Source: a virus
IMG/VR virus record: IMGVR_UViG_3300046009_008236
Location: 1-21,353 of that record
Length of the DNA: 21,353 bases
Strand: one strand, 5' to 3'
Shown: positions 1 to 20,421 of the stretch, one piece after another
Layout of the letters: the number at the start of each line of letters is the position of its first letter
How positions within the stretch are numbered: position 1 is the stretch's first letter
Program-made: the position numbers and the translations under genes
The notes under the pieces: generated by a model
Seen by the model: the letters and a program-made list of their open reading frames with translations, nothing else
Database searches by the model: none
What the model was told of the DNA's origin: nothing

Positions 1-3000
1 TCGGCGTATTTGGCAATCTGACGAACTTCTCCCGCTACGTCCAGTTTTGGATTTTCTGCAAGCTGTGATTTTAACTCCCCCATCACACTTCCGAACTCCC
101 CCTTCAACACCTGCTGCGCCGCCTTCTGTCTCCACCTCCCCTTCCTAATCGCGTCCTGTTCCTCTGCCTGTTTCTCCATCCGCTGTGCGTCGTTGAACTG
201 GCGCAACCTTGTGGGGCGCATACCCAGTGCAAGTCCTAAGCCCTCTCCCGGTGTCATATCGTTCAACACCGCCCGACCTTTGTTGTCCTCGCCCGCTGTT
301 CCAGTGGCCAGCCTTATCTGACTGCGCAGCCCCGGCGGAACAAACGCCATAAGCCCCGCACCCTGTCCGTTCATAATCTGTTTCACCCCTTCCGCCATCT
401 GCGTCGCCAAGCTCGCCGGCACTCCGAACAGATTGCTTATCTGAAACCCGTCCCTCTCACTCACACCCGGAATCAACTCTCCCGACGACAAACGACTTTG
501 CATATCCCAACCAAGTTGTGACGGCAAACCTGACATCATCATATCAGTTAATAAATGGCCATCTTTGCCGTCTTCCGCAAAGAACTGTTGCATCAGTCCC
601 CGGACATTTTTATTTATTTCTAGCGACGGATCAACTTGGTTTATCAGTGCAAGTGCGCCGGAAACAAACGGCATTCCTAAAGCTCCCGCCACCGCAAACT
701 GAAGTCCCAACTGTGTCAAGAACGCTTTCCTTCCCGCATACTTCTCCGCCGGAGTAAGGCTGCTGTTCCTCCACCCCCGCTGAAAGTTCCTCAGTATCTG
801 GTTTATCGTCCCGAACGTATAACTCTGCAACGCACCGGCCATCATAGCCGCACTGCGTGACGCAGGCCCCGCATTGTCATAGAGTCCTATGGCGCGGTTG
901 AAGCGACCACCTGGATCGTTGGTTGCTTGATGCACATCACGGGCTTTGCCCTCCGCCCACTCACGGCCCTTTTCCGGGAACGTCCGCATGAGTGCTCTGA
1001 ACGCACCGAGAGCAGTCGCCTCGGTATTGGCCCGCTCCCCGTGTCGCACCATGGAAAGCGCGACGTTGGAATACGCGCCGCCCACACTCGCCACCCACTG
1101 CCCGAAGGTCTTCGGCTTTGACGCGTTCAGCGACGCCGTCAGCTTGTAGCTGTCGTAGCCTTTTCGCATTTCGGTTTCGTCAAACAACGAGCGGTCGGTA
1201 ATCAGGTCGTTGTTCAGCCGTTCCATAAACCAACGCTCGTTCGCGTCCGGCAGTCCCTTGGACAAATCCGTCATCCCACCGAGCTTCGTAAAGGATTTCG
1301 CCGCGTCCTTCAACGCGCCGGACACCCCTCTGAACGCCGACCAGAATCCCACTCCGTGTGACATCATTTCCGGTATCCCACGGAGGAACGGCTGGAACAC
1401 ATTGTTCAGCAAAAACCCGACATTGCCCCCAAGCGTGAACGTGGTCACGGCCTTCTGCAACGCACGCATAGGTTTCGGGTCAGGGGTGAGGAACCCGTTC
1501 AACCACTGGCGCAGGCCTTGCGACGTTTCAGGTGCTGCGCGGTATTCCGGCGCGAGCAACGTCATCTCCACCTGTTCCCGAATCAACCGCTTATTCCAAT
1601 ACGCAGGACTCCCCTCCAGCCACGAAAAGAAATGGTCCGTGAACGGGACAATATCACCGCCTTTCGACAGCGTCCGACCCTTGCTCTCCCCCGCACCGAT
1701 GTCATACGACACGTGTTGGTCTTTCAGAATCTGTGCACCGGGAGCCAGCTTTTGAATCGCGGAAAGGACTTCGTCCGACGCTCCGGCAGCTTTTGCTGCA
1801 AGCTGTTGGTGCTCGTCATACGCTTTCGCCTTGTCGATAAAGTCCTGACTCCAGTCCATCGTAGCGTAGTCCCCCGGTTCGTTGGGCTTCTTTGTCGTGA
1901 GGTCAATCTTCACCCCGTGCTTACGCGCGCGTGCAAGGACTTCTTTGTCGCTGTCCGCACCCATTATGATTTCCTCTTTTCCACGGAAACCCTTGTAGAT
2001 GAAGTCGCCCTTGCGCTGTGCCGTGACCCACCCGGGGTTATTCTTGAAGTGCAGCTTTGCTGCAATCAACACCTTCGACATTCTGTCTTGTGCCTCCATC
2101 AACTGTTCCAGCGTCTTGGGTTGAAGCACCGCCTGCGCCTGTTGAAGTTTCTGTCCCGCCATCACATCCGCAGGATTCTCCTTCAACGCCATCAGCGCGT
2201 CCAGCACATTCCTCGACGCCGTCATTGCAGCTTCGACGTTGAGGTCTTTCTCCTGCAACAACACCAGCTTCGCCCCTTGCAACGTCCCGTTTTCCCCCAT
2301 ACGATGCAGGATATGCGTCTGTCCCTTCTGCGTCCCTATCGCCATTTGAGCTACTAATTGCCGCGCTTTTAGAATAAGTTTTTCCCTTTCTGTGAATCCT
2401 CCGTGCGGGCCTTGGTCTGTTCCTTTGACCCCGACACCTGCGGCAAGCATTGCAGGATGGTCTGCTTTAAGCAACTCGACTTTATCCTTACCAATAACGT
2501 TGTTTACACGCATAATTGTGTCAACAATGTCTTTGTTCTGTCCCTTCTCCAACCATTCCCTCCACCCTTCGGCAATCTTCTCGTTGTAAACTCCCGGATT
2601 CGCGGGGTCGTAACCCAGAACATCATGCTGTGCGGATTGCGCGAACTTACGTGCGAGGGTGTCACTCCCGGTCATGCGAACGAGCAGCTCCTTCACCAAC
2701 GGATTCGACTGCGCCCACTGTCCGATTTGAAGCGTCAGCTTACGGAGGAACCCAATCTTCTCGTCGATGAATCCGTCCGGCGTTTCCCCTTTCACCTTCG
2801 CCTTCACAGTCAACGGCCGGCTCATCACCTCCAGCATGTTCTCTGTTCCGAAGCTGTCCAGCGCACGCATTTGACTCTTCGACGTCATCACTACGTCCTG
2901 CTGTCTCACAAACGGCTGCACCTTCTCCAGCATGTCTTTTGCTGTGCGCTCAAGGGTTTTCGGTGAAAGCAAGTCCGTAACCGGGCCGCTACCGTTCTTC

Positions 3001-6000
3001 GCGAGGTTGTGAATCCCTAACAGCACATCCTGCATTTGCTGCACGCGCAGGCTAAGATACCGCTGGACGCTGTCCGGCATGTGATTGAAATAAACAACGC
3101 TACTCGGCGTGTCCAACTGTTCCATGAACCAATTTTCAATAGCTTTCCCCGTGTTCGGGTCGCTAAACAACAATGCCGTGTTGCCCATTTCCTTGCTGTC
3201 GGGGCTAGCCATTAGCCGCTTAAATTTGTTCCGTGCTTTGACAAGCTCGTTGGAATCCATGTCAGAAGGCTTCGCCAGAATTGCAAATAGCTCTTGTGGG
3301 TTACCCTTGTCCACCCCATGCTTGTTCATCAGCCTCATCGCAACCTGTGTAGCGTCGTTCGCACGATTGGGGTCGTATCCGCGTTGTGCGAAGTGGGCTT
3401 CGAGGTAGTTGAAGGATTTCGCCACAGCTTCGCTGGAGTCCATGACTTGTTTCGTATGATACAAGAATTCATCAAACGCTGTTTCCTTTGGCCCGATACC
3501 GAAAAGTTTTTTCACGTTATCTACAAACTCAGACAACCAATGCTTGGTCGGTTCCATTAACTTAAGCCGTTCCCTCAACGCATGTGCCCTGTTCCCGTTC
3601 GCGTAGAACTCATCCACGTTTTGAAGGGCGTAAACAAGGTCTTCGATTCTGGAATCTTTGTGGACGTCACCCTGTTTAATATACCGGTTGGGATCTTTCT
3701 TATAGAGTTTTACCAAATAGTTAAACGCATCAAGTTCTCCCCCTTTCTCTTTCGACAATCCCGCAATCACCCGCTTACGAAGGTTTTCAAACCCGTCAAA
3801 AGCTTCTTTGTTTTTCGGGTCACGCAGGGCAATAGTTCCGACGTGATGTTGCAACTCCTCCATTGCAGTGCCAGCCCAACTGTTGTCGGACTCCCCAAGA
3901 TTCCAAGGAGCGAAGGTGATTTTACCTTTCCGCTGACGAATCATCGGCGCATATTCGGTTTCGCCCTTGGCGTCGAACTCGGCCTCCACCCGGCTTAACG
4001 TTTCCGGTAGGTTACGAATAAGCAGTTCCGCCATTGCACGGTCAGCGGGGTCGGCGTCTTCCATTGCGGAAATAACTTCCGCGATAGCGCGACCGCCCTC
4101 GTTAAGCTTACGGTCAGCAATGACCTGGATACCTTCGGGAGTGGGCACCCACTTCTTTTTCGCATGTGACGGACGCGAAAGCGTAAACCCTTCGTTCGCC
4201 TCTAGCTTCGCGAATGCGTTGGAGAGGTTGTAGATAGTGCCGGTGACAGAGGACTTGGGGGTGCCGTCAGGGTTGCGAAAAACTGGGGAGCCGACGACCT
4301 GACCAATTCTAGCCGCCTCTGGGTTAGGCCCAGCAGTCCAAGGATTCTGAAAGCCGTCTGCGCCACTTCCTTGCATACGCTCTCCAGCAGTTTCACTGTA
4401 ACGTGTCGCTTCTTCCAGTGTGCGAAAATAGTGAAGTTCGCCGGTCTGTTCGTTAGTAGCAACAAACGGTAACCGTTCTAAACTACTGCTTGGTCCAGGG
4501 TCTCTCGCATTCTTATGCACCGGCCCCTCCCACTTCTCCCCTTTATCCCCCGTCAGACTCCGCATCGCAGACTGGAGCGTGGTGTCGTAGGCTACGCTAA
4601 AACCAGCGACATAAGGTTCTTTAGTAACGACAATCTGTCCGTCTCGCACTTCCACCTTACCTCCAGCATCAGCGTATCTTGAGTTTATAGACTCGGCCAA
4701 ACGTTTGATAGATTGTTCCGGTGTATCTTGCAGTCGAGTATTATACTCTTCTTGAGTCAGACGTCCAGCTTGCCATTCTTTTTCAACTTGTTGCCGTTCA
4801 CGAGGATAAGCGTTGCTTTTTTCAATGTCATCTCGAAATTGTTTAATCCGCTTATCCAGCCTCTCCGTCATCATCGCCGTTTCCCCATCACTCACTACCA
4901 TTTCCGTAACTCCACGCTTCCGTGCCTCCGCGATTGCGGCTTTGAGGACAAGGACGTGTTGGAGGCGAAGGAGGGGGTGAGAAGGAACGGAGCTAACCAT
5001 TTTCTCGACATACGCGTCAGCTTCTGGCTTAGTCTTAAATGAAGGAAAAGTTGATTTCGTATTTTCTTTGCTGATTGTCCACTTCTCTCCTTCTTGTTTG
5101 ACGTTAAAAGCACGTATTGCCTTCTGTCTTTGCTGCTCCGCCAAACTCTGTTCCTCTTCCAACAACATCACCGGCTCATCAGGGTGCCCTTTCCAACCCT
5201 TTACCAACTTCCCAGGGACAAACTGAAACATTCCCCAACCACCAGTCTCTGAGCCAGCAGGAGTGTGCAAAGGGTCTGACGGCCCTTTGTAACCCTTGAA
5301 CAGCACATCAACACGAAACGGTTGCGAGTCAAACTCTTGCCCGTTAAACGTCCACTTCAGGTTGTTATCAACCGCCGAGATTGCCTCGTAGTAGGAGGTT
5401 GCGCGGGGGGAGGTGTCGGGAGGAAGGGAAGCAGTCTGACTTTTCAACTCAGTAAGTCTAGTAATTTTATTCAAGTCCTCCTCCGACCATCCCTGTTGAC
5501 GAAGATGTTCAAGTCTTTTAGGAAGATTTTCTAATCCCCGTCCTCCAACTTGTTGTGCAGTTCGCAAAGTAGCTTCCAAGTTAGAATGACTAGCATCCAA
5601 CTCTCCCATCAATTTATGTTGTTCTTCTATCAACGCATCCGCCTTTCCCTTCATCCCATACGTCACATTTGTCACCGGCTGTTTTTCCGGATCACTCAAC
5701 ATCGACTTTAACTTCGACATGTCCACCTTCCCATTCACAAACACTCCGGACTTCGTCGCCTCATCCAACGCCTTCATCAACCCCATCTCCACCGGACTCA
5801 CCGTTTTATCTCCACCCAATCCCGCATTCCGTTGAAACCACGCTTCATCCACTTTCCCGCCCGGTGCGTGCTTCGGCGTAGCCACTTCCGGGTTCACGCC
5901 CCAGATAAAATCACCTCCAGCAGAATAGCGTTCCGCACGGGCTTTTGCTTTCGCCACCAGCGGCGTCCCCGGACGTTTCAGCTGCTCCGTGAACCGTTTC

Positions 6001-8462
6001 ATCAACGTCAACGTATGAGGCCGCTGTTCAAACGTCGAAAGGTCTCCGCCACTTTCAACCAAATCCACATTCTGCGAATCCCAAAACTCCTTTGCATTGA
6101 ACTCCTCCCCCGCTGCAAGTTTCGCATCTACATATGCGTGCATACGAACAAGCTCATCACGGAAGTCAATCGCTTCGTCTTTATTCCAGGAGTCAAAAAC
6201 GTCCTGCAACTCACCTACATTCTGCTGCAAAGTTTTTACAAGCAGGTCTCCATGCAAGCTCACAACGATAGGGTCTTTCGTCCCTGAGGCTTCCAGTATC
6301 GTACCCATTTCGTGCTGCTCTTCGGACGTGTTGAGCTGCTCATCAAACTCCCGCTGACTCCCCACAACCTCCGCCATCAGCGAATCTCCTTGTTCTGCCG
6401 CAGCGTCCAAGGAAACCTTTTTATTCTTTCTAGGTTTTTCTTTAATCTCCGAATTCGACGCACGCAGTTCGTCCAACATTCCCTTCAACCACAGCACGCC
6501 TTTTTCATCTAGCGCAAGTCCAAGATTATGCGCGGTAACCCCTGCTAGCGGTCCCCAACGCTTAGCCTTCCTGTCAAACATCGAAGGCAATCCGGCACCC
6601 GTGAGCAGTCCCTCAATCCTCATTGCAACTCCACGCTTGCTCTGTTTCTCATCCGCGGTGGTCATCGGCAGTGAGTTAAACTGAGCCACGAGCTGTGCGA
6701 CTTCTTGAAGTTTCTGTTCACGCGCTTCACGCTCAAGACGAAAAGCCTCCTTCGTCAGTCCTTCGGACTTCCGCGCAAGTTCTTCTGCAGAAGCGCGGTC
6801 AGCAACGAACGCGGTGTCATGCTGTGCAACAATTCTTTTCGCAGCATCAAGTTCATCTCCTGCACGGCTGTCCGCTGTCGCCACAACCTCTCCCTTTGCA
6901 TTCTTACGCAGTAACGCATTTCTCTTTGCAGCCTCGTCCACCCGTGCCGCAAACTCAGCTTCTCCGACAAAACCCTTTGCCTTTGCCACGAGTTCGTCCG
7001 GCATATGAGCTTCTACGTGCAAGTCAATCTTACCTTTTAAGTCGTCTTGCGCACGCTTGGCATCCGCCTGTGCAGCATCCGCAGCCTCCTTCGCCTTCCA
7101 TGCTTCCGACTTCTCTGGATTCCACGTAACATACGTAGGGTCAACTGGCATTTTGAAAACCGTCTGACCGATTTCGTGTGCTCCGGTGCGGGTTCCGCGG
7201 GAAAACTGAACCTTTTGACGCCCTTCTGGCGTGTCCACCCACGCCGTTACCTGCTTACCGCTTTTTGAAATCCCCGTGATTTCACCCTTGACTTCAACAG
7301 CGTCAGGGCTGTTCACAAACGCCGAAAAAGGAATATCCCCTAGTTCAATTGCTGCAACAAGATTAGAATTTACTATCCGTAGATTCTTCTGTGCTTCCTC
7401 GTCCGTTGGTTCCTGCTCTACCCTACGCCGGGCATCTTCCAGTTCCGTCAGCCATCCCCTCGCCGCCGTGTATTCCTCCTCCGTCGGAGGTTTCCCTTGC
7501 AACCTATCCAACATCTCCTGCGCCTTTGGCGTCAGCGGAGCCAGCGGCCCCTTTGCTTTACCCTCACCCTCTTTAGGATAATACGTCCAATTGTCCCTCT
7601 GCAACTGTTTCCATGCCAGCGCATCATGACCTTCAAGCAACGCCTGTCCCGTTGCTTCAATAGCTTTCCCGTAACTTGGCCCGGCCAACTTCTTCGCCCC
7701 GTGCAACGCCATAAACGGCAGGTTCTGAATCCCTTGGGACAGCCAGAACTCTCCCGTGAACGGGTTGGAAATCTCCTCTCCCGCGAACGCCTGTTGTGCA
7801 ACAGTGCTCCCTCCCATCAACCCCATTGCAGCGGCCTGCCCGACGGTGTATGCCCCCGCACCCTGAGCGAGGTTCTGTGGCATGTAACGGGAGAAGCCCT
7901 GCGTCACGCCGGAGTCCATCAGGTTAGTGCCGGACTTAACCAAAATATCCCCCGCCATCTTTTTCGCACCAAGCCGTTTCAACGCCCACTGTTCCGCCAT
8001 GTCTGTCGCCCCCGGCAGCACACCCATCAAAGCCGCCGACGCCACACCTGCGGCCGGACTTCCGGTTTCGGTATACGCCCCCATTCCCGCCATACCCATT
8101 GCCGGCAACAGACGCGCAGCCGCCGTCGACGCCCCGAGTCCGGGGATAAAGAACGTCGCCATATCCGCCGCCATACGCGGAATGGATTCGCCCGCTGAAC
8201 GTCCCACGTCTTCCATCCCGAACGCGGAGCCTATCCCCGCACCCATCTCCCCGGTAAGCTCCGGCAGTCCCGTCCACTCAATACCCCGGTCAATCGACGT
8301 GTTCAGCCGCTTCAACCAGTTGTCTTTCAACCCCGCGTCGAAGGTGTCGCTTTCAGTTGTCGCAGCCATTTGACGCGACCAGTCAGGAAGCGAGAGCGTG
8401 GTGGCTCCAGCGTCCTTGAGGGTGTCGTAAATGTCTTTTGTCTGACGGTAAGTGAGTGGCAT
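1..8462 (-). CDS. Giant large-polyvalent-protein-like virion protein (3' end beyond window)
   Basis: One frame stays open for 2820 codons from the ATG at 8462-8460 to the left edge, so the C-terminus is missing. Residues about 66-150 and 195-225 are Gly/Ala-rich and hydrophobic. Residues about 300-1060 are long, charged and mostly helical-looking. Residues about 1070-1300 follow the pattern of the EIQSDW domain of phage polyvalent proteins: EEEQS at 1102-1106, then a helix with VLKAAIAEARKRGV, DGE, and a later YD. Residues 1535-1540 (EELQHH), followed by VDEF near 1618, resemble a metallopeptidase with an altered HExxH. From about 2340 the sequence resembles LPD38: NVGFLLNNVFQPFLRG, a membrane-like segment near 2582-2605, then GLPSQLGWDMQSRLSSG near 2643. 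Family members are usually virion proteins delivered into the host. The family-typical ending suggests that little remains beyond the edge. Domain names are from memory of family patterns. The enzymatic activity is unproven. Confidence 0.85.
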   Translation of the reverse strand, partial: MPLTYRQTKDIYDTLKDAGATTLSLPDWSRQMAATTESDTFDAGLKDNWLKRLNTSIDRGIEWTGLPELTGEMGAGIGSAFGMEDVGRSAGESIPRMAADMATFFIPGLGASTAAARLLPAMGMAGMGAYTETGSPAAGVASAALMGVLPGATDMAEQWALKRLGAKKMAGDILVKSGTNLMDSGVTQGFSRYMPQNLAQGAGAYTVGQAAAMGLMGGSTVAQQAFAGEEISNPFTGEFWLSQGIQNLPFMALHGAKKLAGPSYGKAIEATGQALLEGHDALAWKQLQRDNWTYYPKEGEGKAKGPLAPLTPKAQEMLDRLQGKPPTEEEYTAARGWLTELEDARRRVEQEPTDEEAQKNLRIVNSNLVAAIELGDIPFSAFVNSPDAVEVKGEITGISKSGKQVTAWVDTPEGRQKVQFSRGTRTGAHEIGQTVFKMPVDPTYVTWNPEKSEAWKAKEAADAAQADAKRAQDDLKGKIDLHVEAHMPDELVAKAKGFVGEAEFAARVDEAAKRNALLRKNAKGEVVATADSRAGDELDAAKRIVAQHDTAFVADRASAEELARKSEGLTKEAFRLEREAREQKLQEVAQLVAQFNSLPMTTADEKQSKRGVAMRIEGLLTGAGLPSMFDRKAKRWGPLAGVTAHNLGLALDEKGVLWLKGMLDELRASNSEIKEKPRKNKKVSLDAAAEQGDSLMAEVVGSQREFDEQLNTSEEQHEMGTILEASGTKDPIVVSLHGDLLVKTLQQNVGELQDVFDSWNKDEAIDFRDELVRMHAYVDAKLAAGEEFNAKEFWDSQNVDLVESGGDLSTFEQRPHTLTLMKRFTEQLKRPGTPLVAKAKARAERYSAGGDFIWGVNPEVATPKHAPGGKVDEAWFQRNAGLGGDKTVSPVEMGLMKALDEATKSGVFVNGKVDMSKLKSMLSDPEKQPVTNVTYGMKGKADALIEEQHKLMGELDASHSNLEATLRTAQQVGGRGLENLPKRLEHLRQQGWSEEDLNKITRLTELKSQTASLPPDTSPRATSYYEAISAVDNNLKWTFNGQEFDSQPFRVDVLFKGYKGPSDPLHTPAGSETGGWGMFQFVPGKLVKGWKGHPDEPVMLLEEEQSLAEQQRQKAIRAFNVKQEGEKWTISKENTKSTFPSFKTKPEADAYVEKMVSSVPSHPLLRLQHVLVLKAAIAEARKRGVTEMVVSDGETAMMTERLDKRIKQFRDDIEKSNAYPRERQQVEKEWQAGRLTQEEYNTRLQDTPEQSIKRLAESINSRYADAGGKVEVRDGQIVVTKEPYVAGFSVAYDTTLQSAMRSLTGDKGEKWEGPVHKNARDPGPSSSLERLPFVATNEQTGELHYFRTLEEATRYSETAGERMQGSGADGFQNPWTAGPNPEAARIGQVVGSPVFRNPDGTPKSSVTGTIYNLSNAFAKLEANEGFTLSRPSHAKKKWVPTPEGIQVIADRKLNEGGRAIAEVISAMEDADPADRAMAELLIRNLPETLSRVEAEFDAKGETEYAPMIRQRKGKITFAPWNLGESDNSWAGTAMEELQHHVGTIALRDPKNKEAFDGFENLRKRVIAGLSKEKGGELDAFNYLVKLYKKDPNRYIKQGDVHKDSRIEDLVYALQNVDEFYANGNRAHALRERLKLMEPTKHWLSEFVDNVKKLFGIGPKETAFDEFLYHTKQVMDSSEAVAKSFNYLEAHFAQRGYDPNRANDATQVAMRLMNKHGVDKGNPQELFAILAKPSDMDSNELVKARNKFKRLMASPDSKEMGNTALLFSDPNTGKAIENWFMEQLDTPSSVVYFNHMPDSVQRYLSLRVQQMQDVLLGIHNLAKNGSGPVTDLLSPKTLERTAKDMLEKVQPFVRQQDVVMTSKSQMRALDSFGTENMLEVMSRPLTVKAKVKGETPDGFIDEKIGFLRKLTLQIGQWAQSNPLVKELLVRMTGSDTLARKFAQSAQHDVLGYDPANPGVYNEKIAEGWREWLEKGQNKDIVDTIMRVNNVIGKDKVELLKADHPAMLAAGVGVKGTDQGPHGGFTEREKLILKARQLVAQMAIGTQKGQTHILHRMGENGTLQGAKLVLLQEKDLNVEAAMTASRNVLDALMALKENPADVMAGQKLQQAQAVLQPKTLEQLMEAQDRMSKVLIAAKLHFKNNPGWVTAQRKGDFIYKGFRGKEEIIMGADSDKEVLARARKHGVKIDLTTKKPNEPGDYATMDWSQDFIDKAKAYDEHQQLAAKAAGASDEVLSAIQKLAPGAQILKDQHVSYDIGAGESKGRTLSKGGDIVPFTDHFFSWLEGSPAYWNKRLIREQVEMTLLAPEYRAAPETSQGLRQWLNGFLTPDPKPMRALQKAVTTFTLGGNVGFLLNNVFQPFLRGIPEMMSHGVGFWSAFRGVSGALKDAAKSFTKLGGMTDLSKGLPDANERWFMERLNNDLITDRSLFDETEMRKGYDSYKLTASLNASKPKTFGQWVASVGGAYSNVALSMVRHGERANTEATALGAFRALMRTFPEKGREWAEGKARDVHQATNDPGGRFNRAIGLYDNAGPASRSAAMMAGALQSYTFGTINQILRNFQRGWRNSSLTPAEKYAGRKAFLTQLGLQFAVAGALGMPFVSGALALINQVDPSLEINKNVRGLMQQFFAEDGKDGHLLTDMMMSGLPSQLGWDMQSRLSSGELIPGVSERDGFQISNLFGVPASLATQMAEGVKQIMNGQGAGLMAFVPPGLRSQIRLATGTAGEDNKGRAVLNDMTPGEGLGLALGMRPTRLRQFNDAQRMEKQAEEQDAIRKGRWRQKAAQQVLKGEFGSVMGELKSQLAENPKLDVAGEVRQIAKYA

Positions 8463-8486
8463 GTTAGGGATAGGGGATAGATTTGA
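8463..8486 (-). promoter_or_regulatory. Leader of the giant gene, without Shine-Dalgarno
   Basis: The 24 bases between the TAG of the preceding gene and the ATG read, on the coding strand, as a pyrimidine/A-rich run ending CCCTATCCCTAAC before ATG. No GGAG-like sequence is present. These 24 bases equal 8 sense codons in the same frame as both neighbouring genes. Confidence 0.5.
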
Positions 8487-9407
8487 CTAGAAGTAGGTAT
8501 TCGTGTTTTCCTGCGCAGCCTGCGCACGGCCGTCATCTAGCGCGTTTTCCATTGTTGTTAGTCCATACTTAGCCCGTGGTAACGCCATGCGAGGATTAAA
8601 CATTCCTTGCATTCCAGCAATGACACCCGCCCACGGATTTCCAGCGGCACTGGCTCCAGCCAGTTGCAGGTGCGCGGGCAGCGTGTCCTGATTGTATGGC
8701 GTGTTCCACGGGTTGTAGGGGCCAGACGCGGTCGGCCTTGACATGCCACCCCAGAAGGAATTATCAGGTTGCCACTTCTCATACGGCGCGTCAGGTCCCG
8801 CTTCGGCGTAGTAAATTCCCGGCCCACGATAGTCCATCGGCAGCATTCCCGGTGAGCCATACTTCAACTGTCTGCCGTATTGTTCCGCTCCTTTAGGATT
8901 GGGGAAAATCCACCCATTGGCCTCCTGCCTTTTACGAGAATTGTCTGCTGCCTGTTCTATAAACGGGCGCAAGTGCCTTTGCAAAAACGGATTTGCCTGT
9001 GCAGGAAGTTCTCCGCGCAGTCCCGCCCAGATGTTCTCTCGCTGTGCCTTCTTCTGCTCCGCCCACTGTGCCCGCTCTTCCTCACGCAGTTTTTCCCCGC
9101 GAGCACGCGCTGCCACGGTCCAGTCGTTGGGATTCGGTCCCGCAGCAAGCGGCCATCCGTTAATGTCGTTGCCCGCACCACGCAAGGCAAGCTGCTGCAT
9201 ACCCATTCGCAGCCCTTCGTTTCGGAGCCGTTGTAGTTCGACCCCGCCATCGCCGAAGTTCGGCATTTGCTGTTGCTGTTGCTGTTGCTGCATCGGTTGC
9301 GGCGCACCTATGAAGTTCGCCTGCATACGGTTCAGCTCGGCAAACCAGTCATTGCGCGAGTTAGTTTTCGGGGTGAAGTCCCAGAGTGAATTTTCGTTTT
9401 CAGCCAT
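8487..9407 (-). CDS. Gln/Trp-rich virion-associated protein, 306 aa, function unknown
   Basis: I do not recognise a family. The protein starts at an ATG (9407-9405) behind an A/C-rich leader and ends at TAG. Residues 38-50 hold eight consecutive Gln flanked by Met, encoded by a perfect hexanucleotide repeat. A charged, probably helical stretch follows at about 105-165 (KLREEERAQWAEQKKAQREN). The C-terminal half (about 165-290) is rich in Pro, Gly, Asn, Tyr and Trp and looks largely unstructured. I count eleven Trp in total, which is unusual. It lies directly upstream of the giant polyvalent-type gene and downstream of another Gln-rich gene, the place where short-tailed phages keep internal (ejected) virion proteins. 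That role is an inference from position and composition. Its stop is the only in-frame stop between it and the giant gene. Confidence 0.85.
   Translation of the reverse strand: MAENENSLWDFTPKTNSRNDWFAELNRMQANFIGAPQPMQQQQQQQQMPNFGDGGVELQRLRNEGLRMGMQQLALRGAGNDINGWPLAAGPNPNDWTVAARARGEKLREEERAQWAEQKKAQRENIWAGLRGELPAQANPFLQRHLRPFIEQAADNSRKRQEANGWIFPNPKGAEQYGRQLKYGSPGMLPMDYRGPGIYYAEAGPDAPYEKWQPDNSFWGGMSRPTASGPYNPWNTPYNQDTLPAHLQLAGASAAGNPWAGVIAGMQGMFNPRMALPRAKYGLTTMENALDDGRAQAAQENTNTYF
9267..9290 (-). repeat. Hexanucleotide microsatellite (TTGCTG)x4 coding poly-Gln
   Basis: Four perfect copies of TTGCTG on the plus strand (CAGCAA on the coding strand) encode eight Gln inside the 306-residue protein. 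A length change by whole units would keep the frame, so the tract could vary in length between isolates. Confidence 0.9.
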
Positions 9408-9438
9408 TGTAGTGTTGTGTTAGGTGTTGTTGTGGTGG
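9408..9438 (-). promoter_or_regulatory. A/C-rich leader without Shine-Dalgarno
   Basis: On the coding strand the 31 bases between the two Gln-rich genes are almost purely A, C and T and end CTAACACAACACTACA before ATG. Guanine is nearly absent from the leader, so no anti-16S pairing site exists. No promoter or hairpin is evident. Confidence 0.55.
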
Positions 9439-10251
9439 TTAGAACATGGGCACCGGGTCGGGTAGCGGTGCAATGCGGCGCTCCAGTGCCCAACGCCGAC
9501 GTTTTACGTCTTCCTCGTCGGCCTTACGTTGCGCATTTTCTCGCAAAATCTGTTCGCGACCTTGTTGTTCGCTTAGCTTCCTTGCAAGGTCAGGATTTTC
9601 CGCCTTTGCCTGTGCAAGCGGGTCAGCCGCCGCACCCCCAGCAGTTGCCATTGTCCCCACCATCTGTTGAATCTCCGGCAAATCCCACACATCAGGATAG
9701 CTTGCTTTCAATCCGACAAGACCAGTTTGCAATTCCTGCCCCTTCATTGTGCCTTGGAAAAGTCCAAGCTGTTGTTTTAGTGACTGCACTCTGGCCATCT
9801 GTCCGAGTGTCTTTGCATTTTGAACTTCATCAGGAAGCAGCGACGCAGCCAAGGCCTTTCCAAGGTTGGAGTCCTGCTGCCCCATTCCGACAAGCTGTGA
9901 AAAAATTCGACCAACTTCGGAGCGTCTTTCAGCTTTCACGCGTTCGGCTTCTGCTGACGCCCGCTGGTTAAACAACGCCTCCTGCTTTGCAAGGTTTGCT
10001 TTCTCGTATCGACCTTGCTGTGCCAGCGCACGGTTTCTATACGCTGCATCGGCTCCATAGTGACGATCTTGCACTGCAAGTTGCTGCTGGCGAAATTCCT
10101 GTTCCGCAGCACGTTGCTGCTGTTGCTGCTGCATCTGCATCCACTGCAACGCGCCTTGTTGTTGCAGCGCGGCGGAGTTATCTTGCCCGCCACCATTGAC
10201 GAGTTGCATCATTTGTGCGAGTTCAGCGAGTTCAGAGTTTCGATTTGGCAT
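9439..10251 (-). CDS. Gln/Ala-rich coiled-coil protein, probable internal virion protein, 270 aa
   Basis: No family is recognised with certainty. The start is ATG at 10251-10249 and the stop is TAA. Residues about 25-120 are very rich in Gln, Ala, Arg and Glu (MQMQQQQQQRAAEQEFRQQQ is typical) and look like a continuous helix or coiled coil. Residues about 120-205 are more mixed, with a likely small folded part (GLVGLKASYPDVWDLPEIQQ). Residues about 215-262 return to charged helix (ENPDLARKLSEQQGREQ), and the tail is Pro-rich. Ala/Gln-rich helical proteins just before a giant gene recall the internal core/ejection proteins of podoviruses such as T7 gp14. This is an analogy of composition and position, not of sequence. 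A scaffold or chaperone for the giant protein is an alternative. Confidence 0.85.
   Translation of the reverse strand: MPNRNSELAELAQMMQLVNGGGQDNSAALQQQGALQWMQMQQQQQQRAAEQEFRQQQLAVQDRHYGADAAYRNRALAQQGRYEKANLAKQEALFNQRASAEAERVKAERRSEVGRIFSQLVGMGQQDSNLGKALAASLLPDEVQNAKTLGQMARVQSLKQQLGLFQGTMKGQELQTGLVGLKASYPDVWDLPEIQQMVGTMATAGGAAADPLAQAKAENPDLARKLSEQQGREQILRENAQRKADEEDVKRRRWALERRIAPLPDPVPMF
10114..10131 (-). repeat. Short CAG/CAA tract, (TTGCTGCTG)x2, coding poly-Gln
   Basis: Two perfect 9-base copies encode six Gln in the 270-residue protein. It is a second in-frame Gln tract within 850 bases of the one in the next gene. Confidence 0.75.
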
Positions 10252-10287
10252 GGGAGTGTGGGTTGGGTTAGACTAAGTTACATTTAC
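10252..10287 (-). promoter_or_regulatory. Leader without Shine-Dalgarno, 36 bases
   Basis: This is the widest gap in the window. The coding strand ends TAACCCAACCCACACTCCC directly before ATG. It is A/C-rich and contains no GGAG-like site. I see no clear -10/-35 pair and no terminator hairpin. Confidence 0.5.
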
Positions 10288-10554
10288 TCACTTCAGCCAC
10301 TTTCCTTCTGGACAGTGTTGAGTGATGAGAACGGTTTTTGCTTTCAGAAAACATCCACAGCGGGAACACTTCGGACCAAGTGGACTGGCGGAGTCCAGAA
10401 AATTCGGGCAGGCTTCACAAACCGCCATCCGCGCAGCCACAACTTCGGGTGCAACCACCAGCTTCCCAGTCGCCAGCACACCCCTTGCAGCTTTTGCCGC
10501 AGCAGCAATGAAACTGGCAGCTCTCGCCGCACCGTTTGGAAGTTCGCCTTTCAT
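10288..10554 (-). CDS. Zinc-ribbon protein, 88 aa
   Basis: I choose the ATG at 10554-10552 because it overlaps the TGA of the preceding gene as TGATG, a usual coupling signal. A GTG at 10590 would add 12 residues and overlap the neighbour by 37 bases. The N-terminal half is an Ala-rich helix. The C-terminal half carries C46xxC49, then C63xxCxC68 and H80-C81 followed by PEGKW. This spacing is like a common small phage zinc-ribbon type (CxxC, CxxCGC, then a Lys and CPxxKW, as in DUF6171-like proteins, which I recall only as a pattern). The cysteines most likely bind one or two Zn ions. The partner is unknown: it may bind nucleic acid or another virion protein. Its coupling to a Cys-rich gene is notable. 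Confidence 0.8.
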   Translation of the reverse strand: MKGELPNGAARAASFIAAAAKAARGVLATGKLVVAPEVVAARMAVCEACPNFLDSASPLGPKCSRCGCFLKAKTVLITQHCPEGKWLK

Positions 10555-11111
10555 CAGCACGGGGTGCAGCCCATTGGGTTTCCGCACCACGGCGGGTTAG
10601 GATTTGAGAAGGGTGTTCCCGGGGGGTTTGCTGCCAGCCACGCCACACAAGTATCGTATGTGACAGTCAATGTTGCACCAGGTCCCGTTGGTTGCGGGAC
10701 GGACGGGGTGCGAAAGTCAAGCTGTGCATGACCGGCATATACCAGCATTCCACAATCGTCCACACACTGCACTTCAATGGAACTGTAGTTCTCCTTGCAC
10801 GCTCCTATAAAGGCAGGTGCGGTAAAAGTCTGCGAAAACCCCGGCCCGGCCACTGTCGCAGTGATGTCTTTGCCTGTCTGATAAACAGGCGTGCATCCGC
10901 TTGTCCATGGAGGAACGGCAACCGGCCCGCCATTTGACAGCCGATAGCCGCATCCCGTTCCTGTGTAACCCCCAGTGATGAAGGTGTAAATTGGAAGCGT
11001 AATCTTTGGGCCGCAAACGCAGCAGCCGGGGCAACTGACCAACAGCTTGTCTGCTTCGCAGTTCACCTGCAACTTGTCTTTGTCACAGTTTATGATTAAC
11101 TTCTCAGGCAT
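10554..11111 (-). CDS. Cysteine-rich protein with N-terminal 9-residue repeats, 185 aa
   Basis: No family is recognised. The protein has 15 Cys in 185 residues, an extreme content for a phage gene. Three imperfect 9-residue repeats open the protein (KLIINCDKD, KLQVNCEAD, KLLVSCPGC; residues 4-30). A CPGCCVCG cluster follows, and the rest is rich in Gly, Pro and Thr with Cys spaced singly, as in GTGCGY, CVDDCG and the terminal NPMGCTPC. No signal peptide or membrane segment is visible. The cysteines could form disulphides in the mature particle or bind metal. It starts three bases after the upstream gene's TAA and ends in a TGATG overlap with the zinc-ribbon gene. A tail or surface structural role is plausible from its place, but this is inference. 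Confidence 0.85.
   Translation of the reverse strand: MPEKLIINCDKDKLQVNCEADKLLVSCPGCCVCGPKITLPIYTFITGGYTGTGCGYRLSNGGPVAVPPWTSGCTPVYQTGKDITATVAGPGFSQTFTAPAFIGACKENYSSIEVQCVDDCGMLVYAGHAQLDFRTPSVPQPTGPGATLTVTYDTCVAWLAANPPGTPFSNPNPPWCGNPMGCTPC
11022..11102 (-). repeat. Three tandem 27-base units coding KLxVxC repeats
   Basis: Three consecutive 27-base units encode nine-residue repeats with consensus K-L-x-I/V-N/S-C-x-x-D/C. The DNA copies have diverged (for example AAGTTA, AAGTTG, AAGCTG), while the Lys, Leu and Cys are kept, which suggests selection on the protein. Confidence 0.65.
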
Positions 11112-11114
11112 GGC

Positions 11115-11465
11115 TTACGGACACGCGGTCGTTTCACTTGGCGTCGTCTCAATCAAGTCATCCCACTCAGGGTCGGCATTCTCCGGGAACTCCTTCAACT
11201 TCTCCTCACTCACAATCAGCGTCTTGAACTGTCCCTGCAATTGCCCGTTGTAAAGCCTCAGCCCCACCAACACGTCGACCTCCAACCCGACCTCCTTTTC
11301 CTCAAACACTGGGGATTCCACCTTCGCGGGTTCTTCAAACCCGATGTTCAAAATCCCACGAGAAAACGTTGCCGTGACCGGAGCCTGCGCCCTCACCTGC
11401 AACCGCTGCAAGATGTCCGCGGTGACGGTATCAACAATTTCCTGCCGTTCTTGTGGGGTTATCAT
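11115..11465 (-). CDS. Small virion-cluster protein, 116 aa, function unknown
   Basis: This is an unrecognised protein. It begins with ATG at 11465-11463, which overlaps the TGA of the upstream gene as ATGA. Residues 3-24 form a likely amphipathic helix (ERQEIVDTVTADILQRL). The middle and C-terminal parts are beta-like and acidic (LEVDVLVGLRLYNGQLQGQF, then PENADPEWDDLIETTPS). There is no signal peptide or metal motif; a lone Cys lies next to the C-terminus. The helix-plus-beta layout could suit a trimeric assembly or tail accessory protein, but I have no sequence support for any specific role. It ends three bases before the Cys-rich gene. Confidence 0.8.
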   Translation of the reverse strand: MITPQERQEIVDTVTADILQRLQVRAQAPVTATFSRGILNIGFEEPAKVESPVFEEKEVGLEVDVLVGLRLYNGQLQGQFKTLIVSEEKLKEFPENADPEWDDLIETTPSETTACP

Positions 11466-13455: not shown

Positions 13456-13485
13456 AGATGGGAGATGTTGGAGACGCTGACTCGG

Positions 13486-13698: not shown

Positions 13699-13723
13699 GT
13701 TGTTTGTTTTTCTTGGTTGTGGG
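13699..13723 (-). promoter_or_regulatory. A/C-rich leader without Shine-Dalgarno
   Basis: The coding strand reads ACAACCAAGAAAAACAAACA and then ACATG. It is a near-pure A/C run that resembles the leader of the capsid gene and contains no GGAG-like site. Confidence 0.55.
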
Positions 13724-14031: not shown

Positions 14032-15447
14032 CTAGAGCGTGATGCCTCCAAGGTTTTCCACCCACATGTGCGCTTCGGGGAATCCGACTTCGATTCCGCC
14101 TGCCGTCAGATACTGATCCTTCCGATACAGCACGCCCTTCGGCTGAACCGAGGTCATGACCTGCGTATCGTGGTTGCACAGCGGACGCCAGACGAGCCAG
14201 CCGAGGTCGAGGTAGAGCGCGCAGGAGCGATAAACCGGTGCCTGGAACAGCGGGTGAACTTTGTAGTAAACCGTGCCGGAGTTGCTCTGGTGCTTGAGAA
14301 GCTGGAAGTCCCAGCCAACGTTCTGCGTTTCCCGCAGCGACGTCCACTGAACCTGCTTTTCAAACGACTCAGCCACCTTTGTGAGGTAGTCCGGTCCGCA
14401 CAGCACCAGCTTGTCCCGTGACGTGCTGTTAACCTTCTCGAACGGGCGAGCAGTCAGCTTGTTAAACTGCGCACGAGTGATCGTGGCGGAATCAAGCTGG
14501 ATGATACGCTTGTCGGGGTAGTCTTCCCACGCAGAGCGGGTGACGGTCGTGAGGTTATCGGTGCCGCCAGCGTGGGTGTAACCGATGTCGCCCGCACTTC
14601 CGAGTTCCCACTGCTTGAGATACCACATGATGCCGCCCGAGGTGTAGCGGAGCATGTTGTCTCCGGTTTCGGCGTCAGCTTCCGTCGTGATAGGCCCGCG
14701 GATACCGAAGATGGTAGTCCGTTCCAGACCTTCAAGATGATGCATACCGTTCAGCTTGAGACGCTTCTGGTAGTCGCCGCTCTTGTTATACAACGTCGGG
14801 GCTTGCAACGCATACGACGTGAGCGCAAAGCCGTTAAGATGCAGCTGCACGTAGTTCTTGACTTCGAGCGGGATGGTCGTGCGACCCTTACGGCTGCGGG
14901 AGCCTTCGAGGTAAGCCGAGCCTGCAAGAAACACAACCTTCCCGGCATTGCTACCAGCGGTGTTGAGCACCGTCGCAGTCACACCGTTCGGCACATTCTG
15001 CGGAACGAAGTCAATCCAATACGCCCCGGCTGTGCCGCCAACCGACAGCACGCGCCCGATAAGGGTGTCGCTACCGGAGGTCAGTGCAACCTGAGGAATT
15101 TGAATCATGTCATCGGTCTGGAAGTCCGCGACGGAGTCAACATAAACCCGAAGGTTCGTGCCAAGACTGATTGTCGTGGGACCGCCCGACGTGGTCGTGC
15201 CGCCAGCGAGGTAGAACGTGACGCCAGAGGTCGGCTGACCCGACGTAAGCGTTGCGGTTTTGATGCTGGTGTAACGCTCTTCCGGCCACCCGAATTCGGG
15301 GACAGGAGTGTCGTTGCCGGGTTCCATCAGCGACAGAAGCGCTGTGAGTGGTGCTGCGCCTTCCGGAAAGTCATAAGAGACCGCCGAACGGATGTTTCGA
15401 CGCCAGTAGGCCTTTTGGCCAGCGGCGGAGGTGATACCAAGTGCCAT
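14032..15447 (-). CDS. Major capsid protein, SU10/DUF5309-like, 471 aa
   Basis: This is the main shell protein, probably of HK97 fold. The start ATG (15447-15445) follows an A-rich leader. The N-terminal part has a typical arm and opening motif (APLTALLSLMEPGNDTPVPE, then FGWPEERY, residues 31-59). Residues about 60-175 form a Thr/Gly/Val-rich beta region, perhaps an extended loop or inserted domain. Residues 175-430 carry the helical and beta core. The C-terminus reads DQYLTAGGIEVGFPEAHMWV followed by EN, the Y-x-T-x-x-G-x-E-V ending that I associate with the DUF5309 (phage SU10) capsid family. Position supports it: the gene follows a scaffold-like gene and precedes the adaptor-like gene. 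Family membership is recalled by pattern; capsid identity is well supported by context. It ends with TAG. Confidence 0.85.
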   Translation of the reverse strand: MALGITSAAGQKAYWRRNIRSAVSYDFPEGAAPLTALLSLMEPGNDTPVPEFGWPEERYTSIKTATLTSGQPTSGVTFYLAGGTTTSGGPTTISLGTNLRVYVDSVADFQTDDMIQIPQVALTSGSDTLIGRVLSVGGTAGAYWIDFVPQNVPNGVTATVLNTAGSNAGKVVFLAGSAYLEGSRSRKGRTTIPLEVKNYVQLHLNGFALTSYALQAPTLYNKSGDYQKRLKLNGMHHLEGLERTTIFGIRGPITTEADAETGDNMLRYTSGGIMWYLKQWELGSAGDIGYTHAGGTDNLTTVTRSAWEDYPDKRIIQLDSATITRAQFNKLTARPFEKVNSTSRDKLVLCGPDYLTKVAESFEKQVQWTSLRETQNVGWDFQLLKHQSNSGTVYYKVHPLFQAPVYRSCALYLDLGWLVWRPLCNHDTQVMTSVQPKGVLYRKDQYLTAGGIEVGFPEAHMWVENLGGITL

Positions 15448-16268: not shown

Positions 16269-16572
16269 TTATGTTTTCTATGTTTAGTTTTTGCGCGACT
16301 ATCTGACCCTCCTCGTCCATTTTGGCGATTTGGGATTTGAGGAGGTCACGAAGCCCCTCGAAATAGGAAATTTGACGAATGACGGAAGTGCGCTGACCGT
16401 GCCAGAGGTTGAGCATTGCGACGGCTTCGATGTTGTTGGGGGACGTGGCGAGGATGGAAGTCTCCAGACCTTCGAGTTCTACGCCCAGAGCTTTTTGCAC
16501 CTCGGGGTAAACGGGCGACGCCATGTAGGCGTCCAGCGCGTCGAGCTGTTTTTGGAAGTCGGAGCGGAGCAT
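16255..16572 (-). CDS. Small helical protein between portal and scaffold, 105 aa
   Basis: I take the ATG at 16572-16570, which overlaps the TGA of the portal gene as TGATG; a GTG three bases further upstream is an alternative. A weak purine run (AAAGGGAAG) lies just before it, the nearest thing to a ribosome site in the window. The protein is almost wholly helical (FQKQLDALDAYMASPVYPEV, then QKALGVELEGLE) and ends in a polar Asn/Glu tail. Proteins of this size and make-up often sit between portal and scaffold in short-tailed phages, but their role is not established. It may help portal incorporation. It overlaps the scaffold gene by 14 bases. Confidence 0.8.
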   Translation of the reverse strand: MLRSDFQKQLDALDAYMASPVYPEVQKALGVELEGLETSILATSPNNIEAVAMLNLWHGQRTSVIRQISYFEGLRDLLKSQIAKMDEEGQIVAQKLNIENINENE

Positions 16573-18764
16573 CACTTCCCTTTCGCCTCCGGTTTAACAT
16601 TAATATGCACCACCTTGTCCCCTTCCGTCACGTGCGTCTGCGGCGCATTCGTCGTCTGAGGCCCGCCCTGCTGTTGCGGCTGTGGGTTATCCTGGACAGG
16701 AGGACGGGGCATAACATCCAGCCCTTCTTCCACCCGCTTTTTCAGCGAAAACCGCGAAACCGGTCCCGCATCACGTAGGCGTAGCATTTCCTCAAGGATT
16801 GCTTTTGCCGAAAGGTCAAGCTGCATCGCCATTTCGGGATTCTGCATTGCCGTGATAAGCAGTTCCTGCAACGACTGCGCCATCATCCCACGGTCTTGGG
16901 GCATCGTGTTGTCGTAAAGCATGAAGTCGTCCCCGCAGATGACTTCTTCGGGTTCGCCCTTGAAAGCTTCGTAACGCTCCTGCACTTCCAACATAGGGTC
17001 GACCGGACGGGGAGGGATTTGTGACGGGTCAATCTGCTGTTGCAGCATGGGGTTCTGTCGCACAGCTTCCGCAAGCTGTTGCATCTGCATCTCCCACTGC
17101 TGAGAAGCGGCAGCGTATTGGGCGAGAACTTTTTTTGACGGCTTGCCGATGACCCGTAGAAAGGACTCGAAGGACAGCGACTGCCGAGCGTTGCTCAACA
17201 TCAACCGCCCCATCCGACCCAACAGACTTTCCCAGATAAGCGCGCCGTGCATTTTCATACGCGAGGCGGCTCCGCCTGCGACAGTGCGGTCTTGGAAAGA
17301 AGACCGCCGGCCAGTGCTCGACTGTCCCTGCATCATCTTATTCACCCCCGTGACTTGCTCAATCACATCGCCGAGAATCCCCACGTCGTTCATGTGGTTC
17401 CCCGTGACGTCCTGAATGCGCAACTGGCCTACGGCCCTGTCTGGAGGCACTGCAACACCCTTGCGAAGATAGATGTCCCCCTTGCCGTCAAGACTTTTCG
17501 TGTTGATAAGCGACTCGTTAATGATGAGCCGATTGTCAATAACGCGGTCAACACTCGCCACGTGCGAGTTCATGAACCACGATTGAAACTCCTGAATCGG
17601 ATAGATAAGCTCCGCAAGACCGAACGAAGTGTTTTGGTGCATGTCAGGGCTGAACTGCCCAACGGTGTAGCCAAACTCATTATGCCACCACTTCGCCTGC
17701 TCCATGCGGATGACACGGTTGCCGTTCGCATACCACAGGTGGTAGAGAATCTTGTGGTTTTCGGAGCCTAGAACCCACTCCCCGTTGTCGTTCTTCACCG
17801 GCTTATTTCCCGCAACCTTACTCTGTCCCGGCACATAGTCTTTCAGTTTGAACTTCGACGGGATAATCCAGACCTGCATCTTGGTCACGAGAGCAAGGCT
17901 GCTACCGTTGTTCGGGTCAAATCCCGTCACGAGATTTTCATTCCCCCTCAACGCTCCGCGAAGGTTGTCCATGACCTCGGCAAGACCGCCCACACTTCCC
18001 GCAACAGCCATCGGTTGAATATACTTCACCCCCGCAACCTCCCCTGCCGCTTCGAGTTCATAAAGCGCGGTCATTGAAAATTCTTCTTCTAACGCACAGA
18101 ACTCGCCCTTCTGGAAATCGCACAAAGCGTGCCGCGTGTCCGGAAAAAACCGGAAGGGCGAGATATTCCGCACTCGATTCCCCTCATACTTCACGTAGTC
18201 CTCCCACGCCGCAACAGGGTCAGGAGTGGGATAGATTTCCCCGTTAGGCCCAGGAGCCGGTGTCGGTTCTTGCCGCGCAATCCACGCTTTCATCATTTCC
18301 TTCGTCCACGAGACTTCCATCGCGGCTTCACCGAAACGCCCAATGTCAAGAAGGGCTTGAAAAAGTCGTGCGTTTTTGTCGTTCTTGTTCAGCTGGAACT
18401 CCAACACCAACTCCAGGTCAGCTTTCTTCGTGCCGAAGTCCTCGTCCCCCGTCGGACGGAGATTGAAAAACGTCTCTTGTTGGTTGAACTGAAGGAAGTG
18501 GAACGACACAAAGGTCATTATCTGCGCGTACGCAGTGGGGAGCACAGCCTTTGTTGGACGCCCTTCGGCTGCCTTTTTGGTGTCCTCCTTATCCATCACC
18601 ATTTCGCCCTTGAACACGCTTTGTTGGAGTTCCCAGTTTTCGTAGTTCCGACTACGCGCCTGCCGGGAAATACCCATGAGACGCTTGGCGTGTTTAAGCA
18701 ACGCGCTATGAAAAGCGTCCTCGGGGTCTTGGACAGAAAGCAGGGTTTTAATATCAGAGTCCAT
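16572..18764 (-). CDS. Portal protein, podovirus type, 730 aa
   Basis: This is the dodecameric ring at the capsid vertex through which DNA enters and leaves. The size fits podovirus portals. The N-terminal part (about 1-230) has the helix-rich region with YENWELQQSVFKGEM and PTAYAQIMTFVSFHFLQFNQ. The middle has the typical clip and wing segment (NTSFGLAELIYPIQEFQSWF), then INESLINT and GVNKMMQGQSSTGRRSSFQD near 475-500. The C-terminal 180 residues are rich in Gln and Met (MQMQQLAEAVRQNPMLQQQ) and Pro, like the extended barrel or crown of long portals, and end in a disordered PQPQQQGGPQTTN tail. The gene directly follows the terminase and overlaps it by one base (TAATG). Confidence in the portal call is high from pattern plus position. 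Confidence 0.9.
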   Translation of the reverse strand: MDSDIKTLLSVQDPEDAFHSALLKHAKRLMGISRQARSRNYENWELQQSVFKGEMVMDKEDTKKAAEGRPTKAVLPTAYAQIMTFVSFHFLQFNQQETFFNLRPTGDEDFGTKKADLELVLEFQLNKNDKNARLFQALLDIGRFGEAAMEVSWTKEMMKAWIARQEPTPAPGPNGEIYPTPDPVAAWEDYVKYEGNRVRNISPFRFFPDTRHALCDFQKGEFCALEEEFSMTALYELEAAGEVAGVKYIQPMAVAGSVGGLAEVMDNLRGALRGNENLVTGFDPNNGSSLALVTKMQVWIIPSKFKLKDYVPGQSKVAGNKPVKNDNGEWVLGSENHKILYHLWYANGNRVIRMEQAKWWHNEFGYTVGQFSPDMHQNTSFGLAELIYPIQEFQSWFMNSHVASVDRVIDNRLIINESLINTKSLDGKGDIYLRKGVAVPPDRAVGQLRIQDVTGNHMNDVGILGDVIEQVTGVNKMMQGQSSTGRRSSFQDRTVAGGAASRMKMHGALIWESLLGRMGRLMLSNARQSLSFESFLRVIGKPSKKVLAQYAAASQQWEMQMQQLAEAVRQNPMLQQQIDPSQIPPRPVDPMLEVQERYEAFKGEPEEVICGDDFMLYDNTMPQDRGMMAQSLQELLITAMQNPEMAMQLDLSAKAILEEMLRLRDAGPVSRFSLKKRVEEGLDVMPRPPVQDNPQPQQQGGPQTTNAPQTHVTEGDKVVHINVKPEAKGK

Positions 18765-20419
18765 TAGGCGTAGGTGTGGCGGGAAAGGTGAATGGCGTTA
18801 TGCCGAGAGTATTCCGGACGGACAGGGAGTTTGTCCTCGTCAGAAGGAGTAACGTAGTCGAGACCGGAAAGCACCGCACGGTAAAGGTTCTCCATCATGT
18901 GGTCGTCCTTGTCCACAGGTTTACCGGTTTCGGGGTCTTTCACGTAGTGCGTCATCTCAAACAGGGTTTGAGTAAGGTTCGGCGAAAAGTAGATTGTCGG
19001 GAGGTCGTGGTGTCCACGTTCCCGGAGCTTTTCCCCAACCTTCAGCGTGCCCTGCGTGCGGTCCTTTGTCGCAGGCATGAAAAAGAGGTCGTGAGAAGCG
19101 AGAGTGTCGATAACGGAAGTTTCGCTGTTCGGGTCTTCGATTACAGCGTTCGGGTCGATTTCGAGAGAAATGCAGTTACGCCCGGCAATCTTTTCCTTCA
19201 AAAGCTCCGCGTTCTGTGCGATATACTTTGTGTAGAACATCTCGTCGTAGATGTAAACGGTGCCGTCTGGAGCCGTCGCGAAGAAAAGCAACGCTTGGTG
19301 TTTGGAGATATGAACGTCCCACCAGACCCTGATGGTGTAGTTTTTTGGCGGGTCGTTGAAATCTTTCCACCCTTTCGGAACGTCACACAACACGTGCATG
19401 TCCCACACAAACTCGGGATAGACAAGGCCGGACATGTGGGACGGGAGACCGTTGATGCGGCATTCAAGGTTCACGGGGTCGCGCTTGAACAGTTCTTCAA
19501 ACTCGTCAATGGACTGTTGGGAGTTATGCGGGTTGTCGTAGATGCTCCACGTGATGATAAAGCGGGAAACGTTGTTGTTTTTGCCCACCACAAACTCCCG
19601 CCCGTCCGGGGCCATGTCCACCAGACGCTTGTTCTTCGGCGTGAACATGTCGTTAATCCACATTTCGGTGAGAGGCGTGCAGTTAATCCAGAACTTTCCT
19701 TGACGGTCAACAAGCCCGCGTGCATGGGCTTGGAACATGCTTTCAGGACAGGGTTCGTCAAGGTGAATCACGTCCCAATCGCTGGACTCTGCGGACATCT
19801 TTGCATGTTTATACGATTCGATGGTGTCAATATAAATCGAAGATACTCCGCCACCATGTTCGGCTGGCCGTGCAATATCAATCCGGTCAATGTGGCCGCC
19901 GCGAGATTTATGGGGGTTGCCGTGGATGGAAGCTGTTGGGATGAGCTGGAAATACTCACCCCAGTTTTCATAGCTTCCGACGTTGTTGGTAAAGATTTCA
20001 TTGGACTTGTCCCAGTCGGTGACGATGAGAAGGAGTTTTATCGGACGCTGAGGGATGCCGAGAGTGATAAGGGCGAAGTCTTCAGGGTTAGCAACAGGGT
20101 CATGCACACGAACGACATTTCCCTTTCCGTCCTTGACTTCAAACTTGTGCCGATACCACGGGCGATAACCGAGGCAGAACGCCACGTCTTCGGCGGCTCC
20201 GCACTTCGTTTTTCCGCCGCGGTTTCCGGTGCGACAATAGCGACCCGCGACATGAGCAGCGCGGTGAAACTTATCCTGCTTCGCGTGCGGACGATAGAAG
20301 TCAAGCCCGAACGCTTCCCGAAGTGCCTTAATCCGCGCAAGGGTTTCCTTACGTTTACGCAGTTCCACCAGCCGGTCTTGCACGGCAGGAGAGTCAACGA
20401 ACTGTGTGTCGGCAGACAT
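18764..20419 (-). CDS. terL: Terminase large subunit (packaging ATPase/nuclease), 551 aa
   Basis: This is the motor that pumps DNA into the procapsid and cuts it. The ATPase half shows a Walker A (TGNRGGKT, residues 64-71), a Walker B with catalytic Glu (DVIHLDEP, 216-223, Glu222) and a coupling-type motif (NCTPL, 246-250). The nuclease half shows the expected three acidic sites: Asp368 in VWWDVHISKH, Asp422 in SLEIDP, and Asp505/506 in KDDHMMENLYRAV. Length and motif spacing are those of a complete enzyme. The start ATG (20419-20417) lies two bases after the preceding TAA. No small terminase gene is visible; it may lie beyond the right edge. Confidence 0.97.
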   Translation of the reverse strand: MSADTQFVDSPAVQDRLVELRKRKETLARIKALREAFGLDFYRPHAKQDKFHRAAHVAGRYCRTGNRGGKTKCGAAEDVAFCLGYRPWYRHKFEVKDGKGNVVRVHDPVANPEDFALITLGIPQRPIKLLLIVTDWDKSNEIFTNNVGSYENWGEYFQLIPTASIHGNPHKSRGGHIDRIDIARPAEHGGGVSSIYIDTIESYKHAKMSAESSDWDVIHLDEPCPESMFQAHARGLVDRQGKFWINCTPLTEMWINDMFTPKNKRLVDMAPDGREFVVGKNNNVSRFIITWSIYDNPHNSQQSIDEFEELFKRDPVNLECRINGLPSHMSGLVYPEFVWDMHVLCDVPKGWKDFNDPPKNYTIRVWWDVHISKHQALLFFATAPDGTVYIYDEMFYTKYIAQNAELLKEKIAGRNCISLEIDPNAVIEDPNSETSVIDTLASHDLFFMPATKDRTQGTLKVGEKLRERGHHDLPTIYFSPNLTQTLFEMTHYVKDPETGKPVDKDDHMMENLYRAVLSGLDYVTPSDEDKLPVRPEYSRHNAIHLSRHTYA

Positions 20420-20421
20420 GG

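Follow-up and report, generated by a model that had tools for sequence, protein, structure and literature searches.

The 21,353-nt stretch of viral DNA analysed here (the window), a linear IMG/VR contig of environmental origin, encodes a giant protein that we assign, with a probability of about 60%, to the phage polyvalent proteins of tail-700/PLxRFG (DarB-like) type. It is probably injected along with the DNA and would carry an effector domain with a predicted GNAT fold. The protein is of a known kind; its architecture and the fold assignment are new. It consists of two conserved ends and an exchangeable middle, and it is a downstream member of a podovirus-type virion cassette. Such a plan, conserved delivery ends around an exchangeable middle, would make cargo in giant phage proteins findable by position, and a GNAT-like fold suggests acyl transfer as a function that can be tested for a phage domain that recurs but is not covered by any Pfam model.

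The giant ORF starts with an ATG at 8462 and runs without an internal stop over 2820 codons. This stop-free length is beyond chance, the presence of homologues of similar length confirms that the frame is coding, and no sign of a frameshift was found. The original prediction of a single frame across the left 8.46 kb is thus confirmed, and we add the strand, minus, which it had not stated. The last conserved block is followed by 102-138 residues in 24 relatives that hold both ends vs 15 in the window giant; the protein is cut at the contig edge, and this comparison suggests that about 100 C-terminal residues are missing. An exact-match search found no contig extending the cut C-terminus.

Features of the giant protein and its neighbouring genes (window coordinates; residues numbered in the giant protein).
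Feature	Residues	Position	Strand	Basis or remark
Giant ORF	2820 visible	3..8462	-	3' end lost at contig edge; homologues
Conserved N-terminal block	~4-253	7704..8453	-	Gly/Ala-rich; kept in relatives
Private stretch	~255-868	5859..7700	-	relatives not detectable; GC3 below that of the ends
EIQSDW-like domain, predicted GNAT fold (core from ~929)	~907-1425	4188..5744	-	40 members; models; fold matches
Zincin-like metallopeptidase segment	~1490-1655	3498..3995	-	EELQHH at 1535-1540 replaces HExxH; VDEF Glu (1616-1619) kept
Segment of close relatives only	~1684-1855	2898..3413	-	shared with L131, L144, L113 and L112
Private stretch	~1861-2020	2403..2882	-	relatives not detectable
Conserved C-terminal block	2022-2820	3..2399	-	includes tail-700/PLxRFG match at 2337-2787
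Gln-rich protein, 306 aa, adjoins giant		8487..9407	-	internal-virion-protein-like by position only; homologue search negative
Gln/Ala-rich protein, 270 aa		9439..10251	-	internal-virion-protein-like by position only; homologue search negative
Major capsid protein		14032..15447	-	SU10_MCP PF17236, E 1.7e-16
Portal		16572..18764	-	SU10_portal / PHROG 332
Terminase large subunit (TerL)		18764..20419	-	PHROG 2, E 5.7e-9

Within the contig, the giant closes a cassette of virion genes that comprises TerL, an SU10-type portal and capsid protein, tail-type genes and the two Gln-rich proteins. It lies 10.3 kb downstream of TerL on the same strand; nine relatives whose contigs carry both TerL and the giant show the same strand and order, at distances of 7.6-16.5 kb. 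Length and a location after the tail genes are what a tape-measure or tail-fibre protein would have; this identity is nevertheless highly improbable, as the portal and capsid are of podovirus type, zincin and GNAT-like domains are present, and Pfam and PHROG gave no tail match even at E<=1. Elsewhere in the window, a small protein (10288-10590) has a zinc-ribbon-like CxxCPNF...CSRCGC pattern, and a 185-aa protein (10554-11111) has a Cys-rich N-terminus and no family match above chance. A plus-strand frame of 852 codons (18776-21334), antisense to TerL and its upstream gene, is probably a shadow frame. A 6.1-kb metagenome contig, L002, carries a TerL 100% identical to that of the window.

Profile searches of IMG/VR found giant relatives of 1805-3124 aa. 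With the giant protein as query, 25 of 50 TerL-related viral records gave matches, and a profile of the EIQSDW-like segment gave 40 loci, of which a few lay on contigs already in the relative set; two alignments (A3 and A4) proved unsuitable as scan seeds because of their diversity. Iterated profiles, whose E-values derive from small, related search sets, show residues ~4-253 and ~2022-2805 to be conserved in the relatives and the middle to be mosaic. In 25 giants that hold both ends, this middle is as short as 721 aa and as long as 1960 aa. The comparison with L131 illustrates the pattern: N-terminal identity is 47% over 281 columns, and residues 262-1602 are without a match at E 1e-3. Over residues 283-1692 GC3 falls mostly between 0.40 and 0.60, vs about 0.7 at the N-terminal end. 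In one relative, L177, the giant is divided inside the EIQSDW domain into ORFs at 7658-9862 and 9989-13999, which reflects a genuine split or else a frameshift. A tblastn search of 50,697 phages with the whole giant protein and a capsid-seeded IMG/VR scan returned no match. Searches of Pfam, PHROGs and NCBIfam with the window giant returned nothing except a tail-700 match and a weak match to Cas12c, an identity that we dismissed as chance.

The tail-700/PLxRFG model of NCBIfam (NF032893) matches the truncated C-terminus with 67 bits (E 1e-18; curated cut-off 100 bits). The same model scores above its cut-off in the close relatives L112, L113 and L144 (105-134 bits), and it matches 12 of the 17 proteins scanned. 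A profile of the C-terminal family in turn matches giants of cultured phages (PBC5 gp21, 2.8e-42; ABTNL-3, 2.2e-36; LASTA, 3.6e-34; Parlo, 5.8e-30) and no reversed decoy sequence. By profile similarity, then, this end is the tail-700/PLxRFG region of the DarB-like giants of cultured podoviruses. It had been described as LPD38-like, an assignment that finds no support: Pfam LPD38 gave no match in the window giant at E<=1 or in the relatives at E<=0.01 or 0.001. A profile search of the PDB with the C-terminal block gave only two weak matches, taken as chance.

The EIQSDW-type segment was correctly recognised from the outset. No Pfam model covers it, and a PHROG match, a weak one, was obtained for just one of 32 members. 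Ten columns are invariant over these 32 members, among them H1066, E1103, Q1105, D1203, Y1292 and H1316. In the searches the domain came up almost exclusively in viral contigs, with one match in 84,980 prokaryote genomes. A sequence-profile search of the PDB gave no match, hhalign comparison with three phage GNATs was insignificant, and no sequence or profile comparison detected a GNAT in the domain, which is too divergent for the Pfam GNAT models. In L144, the closest relative, a recognisable GNAT (Acetyltransf_7, 6.3e-6; 1010-1201, residues ~337-400) is inserted in its EIQSDW GNAT-like domain.

Predicted structures point to a GNAT fold. The AlphaFold model of the window segment is confident over residues ~939-1424 only, and its low-confidence part (~1430-1860) was left out of the interpretation. 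Each of the 50 PDB matches that VIA listed for the window EIQSDW model is a GNAT or an AHL synthase, with Z up to 9.1; Foldseek with this model alone was not significant. The compact member L182 (pTM 0.75) was modelled with the GNAT order b1-a1-a2-b2-b3-b4-a3-b5-a4-b6-b7, and all 50 PDB matches listed for it were GNATs, both by Foldseek (best E 4e-3, probability up to 0.97) and by VIA (Z 9.3); Foldseek E-values for the EIQSDW models all exceed 0.001. The two modelled members are 24% identical, and the models are not fully independent because they share most of their alignments. When predicted structures of viruses were searched, phage proteins ranked first, several of them carrying a large polyvalent or ART-PolyVal-like annotation, and GNATs of giant viruses came next. 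Some other alpha/beta fold that resembles GNATs in models is unlikely: it would agree with the lack of sequence-level support for a GNAT and with a Foldseek E of merely 4e-3, but the models of two divergent members and two aligners agree, every VIA match listed is a GNAT or an AHL synthase, all 50 Foldseek matches listed for L182 are GNATs, and the topology fits.

Compared with GNAT acetyltransferases such as GCN5, RimI and TacT/AtaT, the EIQSDW domain is thus alike in predicted fold and strand order, the fold topology of the superfamily being present in predicted models, but it differs in having no sequence similarity, large insertions and a signature, EVQSDW(G/A)Q, at the end of strand 4 (EEEQSLAEQ in the window giant). 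The signature would fall near GNAT motif A and the CoA site, but it does not show the usual Q/RxxGxG/A pattern. Since the canonical motif A is not apparent there, catalysis is uncertain, and any activity is hypothetical because sequence methods miss the GNAT link. We tentatively propose, at somewhat short of even odds, that the models describe a previously unrecognised, apparently virus-restricted family of GNAT-fold acyltransferases with a remodelled CoA loop, acting as an injected effector within the exchangeable cargo.

The middle also holds the metallopeptidase-like segment that had been proposed. In relatives aligned to the zincin profile, HExxH precedes a DEF-type Glu, and 22 of the 25 giants contain HExxH in their middle vs about 4% expected by shuffling. 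The zincin-related segment is present in the window giant as well, but the first zinc ligand is lost, so that the combination of HExxH and a downstream Glu is absent and this copy is probably inactive or altered.

Residues 300-1060 and 1640-2300 had been called unrecognisable, and these limits need correction: ~907-1060 belong to the EIQSDW domain, ~1684-1855 are shared with close relatives, and ~2022-2300 are part of the conserved C-terminal block. What stands is that residues 255-868 and 1860-2020 are without matches in viral and phage searches, and 255-868 also in a PDB search; residues ~1430-1490 have no relatives within the sequences searched. The idea that unassigned stretches may hold effectors finds its clearest candidate in the EIQSDW domain, with its GNAT-like fold, whereas 255-868 and 1860-2020 yielded nothing.

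We envisage that the giant travels in the virion and leaves it together with the DNA, that the conserved ends serve as a packaging and delivery scaffold, and that the middle is cargo directed at the host cell as infection begins. In the window giant the recognisable cargo would be the GNAT-fold domain with the EIQSDW signature, most likely an acyl- or acetyltransferase acting on a host protein, an RNA or a small molecule, together with the zincin segment, whose counterpart in relatives probably cleaves the polyprotein or a host target. A purely structural internal-core or ejection protein, similar to T7 gp16, would instead help the DNA across the envelope, with the middle as a spacer and the GNAT-like and zincin folds as inactive relics. 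The position after Gln/Ala-rich internal-protein-like genes, the conserved Gly/Ala-rich N-terminus and the missing ligand of the window zincin would all suit such a role. We consider it the strongest competitor, yet rather unlikely, because relics would be expected to lose both HExxH, kept in most of the giants, and the invariant EIQSDW columns (His, Glu, Asp, Tyr and His among them), which persist over 32 divergent domains, and because relatives carry ART-PolyVal, LPD37 and canonical GNAT domains.

The polyvalent assignment of the original prediction is upheld by the late-gene context, the modular middle, the zincin segment, the DarB-like/PLxRFG C-terminus and two Pfam domains of the relatives, ART-PolyVal (1.3e-22) and LPD37 (1.4e-13). 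Its expectation of LPD-family matches was borne out in these relatives only; no polyvalent Pfam domain (LPD, ART or other) was found in the window giant itself. Polyvalent proteins were proposed by Iyer et al. 2017 (PMC5512222) to be packaged, ejected with the DNA and active as effectors, with zincins as processing enzymes and GNATs, including two RimI-like families, among their cargo. The window giant resembles them in its large size, its multidomain make-up, its place among the late virion genes, its zincin and its relatives with ART-PolyVal, LPD37 and GNAT; it differs in having no Pfam LPD domain and in an EIQSDW domain beyond the reach of the Pfam GNAT models.

The PLxRFG/tail-700 giants of LASTA (Klebsiella), Parlo (Serratia) and PBC5 (Sinorhizobium) share with it the C-terminal ~700 residues, the size and the place at the end of the virion block, and the Parlo giant, which is DarB-like, also has a related zincin (4.4e-15 with the zincin profile). 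The LASTA giant carries an SLT transglycosylase, an Eco57I-type methylase, a helicase and LPD39, and PBC5 gp21 a helicase and LPD39, none of which was found in the window giant. The DarB pairing of a methylase with an SNF2-type helicase is thus present in LASTA, but neither domain has a Pfam match at E<=1 in the window giant; no separate SLT lysozyme was found in the 16 relatives searched. The cultured giants tested are without the conserved N-terminal block and the EIQSDW domain of the window group. LASTA (L186:16236-16691) and Parlo (L188:2149-2574) each have a solo GNAT gene among the virion genes near the DarB-like giant, the two being 76% identical, and PBC5 has two adjacent genes (L189:4950-12524 and 14156-20698) both annotated as DarB-like. 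Vibrio phage vB_VspS_VS-ABTNL-3 PVS_24 (1790 aa) and Caulobacter phage Kuura_021 (1358 aa) are likewise encoded last or almost last in the forward structural block, with a tail-700 C-terminus and a related portal, and differ in size and in having no match to the EIQSDW domain or the N-terminal block.

The podovirus JC1 bears on whether such giants are packaged. Its DarB-like protein (4515 aa) is the product of the last virion-module gene, and 51 unique peptides of it were identified in preparations of purified virions (PMC9144972). That the window giant is instead a large protein produced in the infected cell and left out of the particle is therefore improbable, given also its late virion-gene context with fixed order and its C-terminal homology to DarB-like giants. 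Burkholderia phage JC1 gp69 / Bcep22 gp75 differ from the window giant in having methylase and helicase matches and no tail-700 match, so JC1 supports packaging by analogy only; the similarity of gp69 to the C-terminal block is weak (0.001-0.003), and we do not claim homology. The likeness lies in the arrangement, a giant as the last gene of a podovirus virion module.
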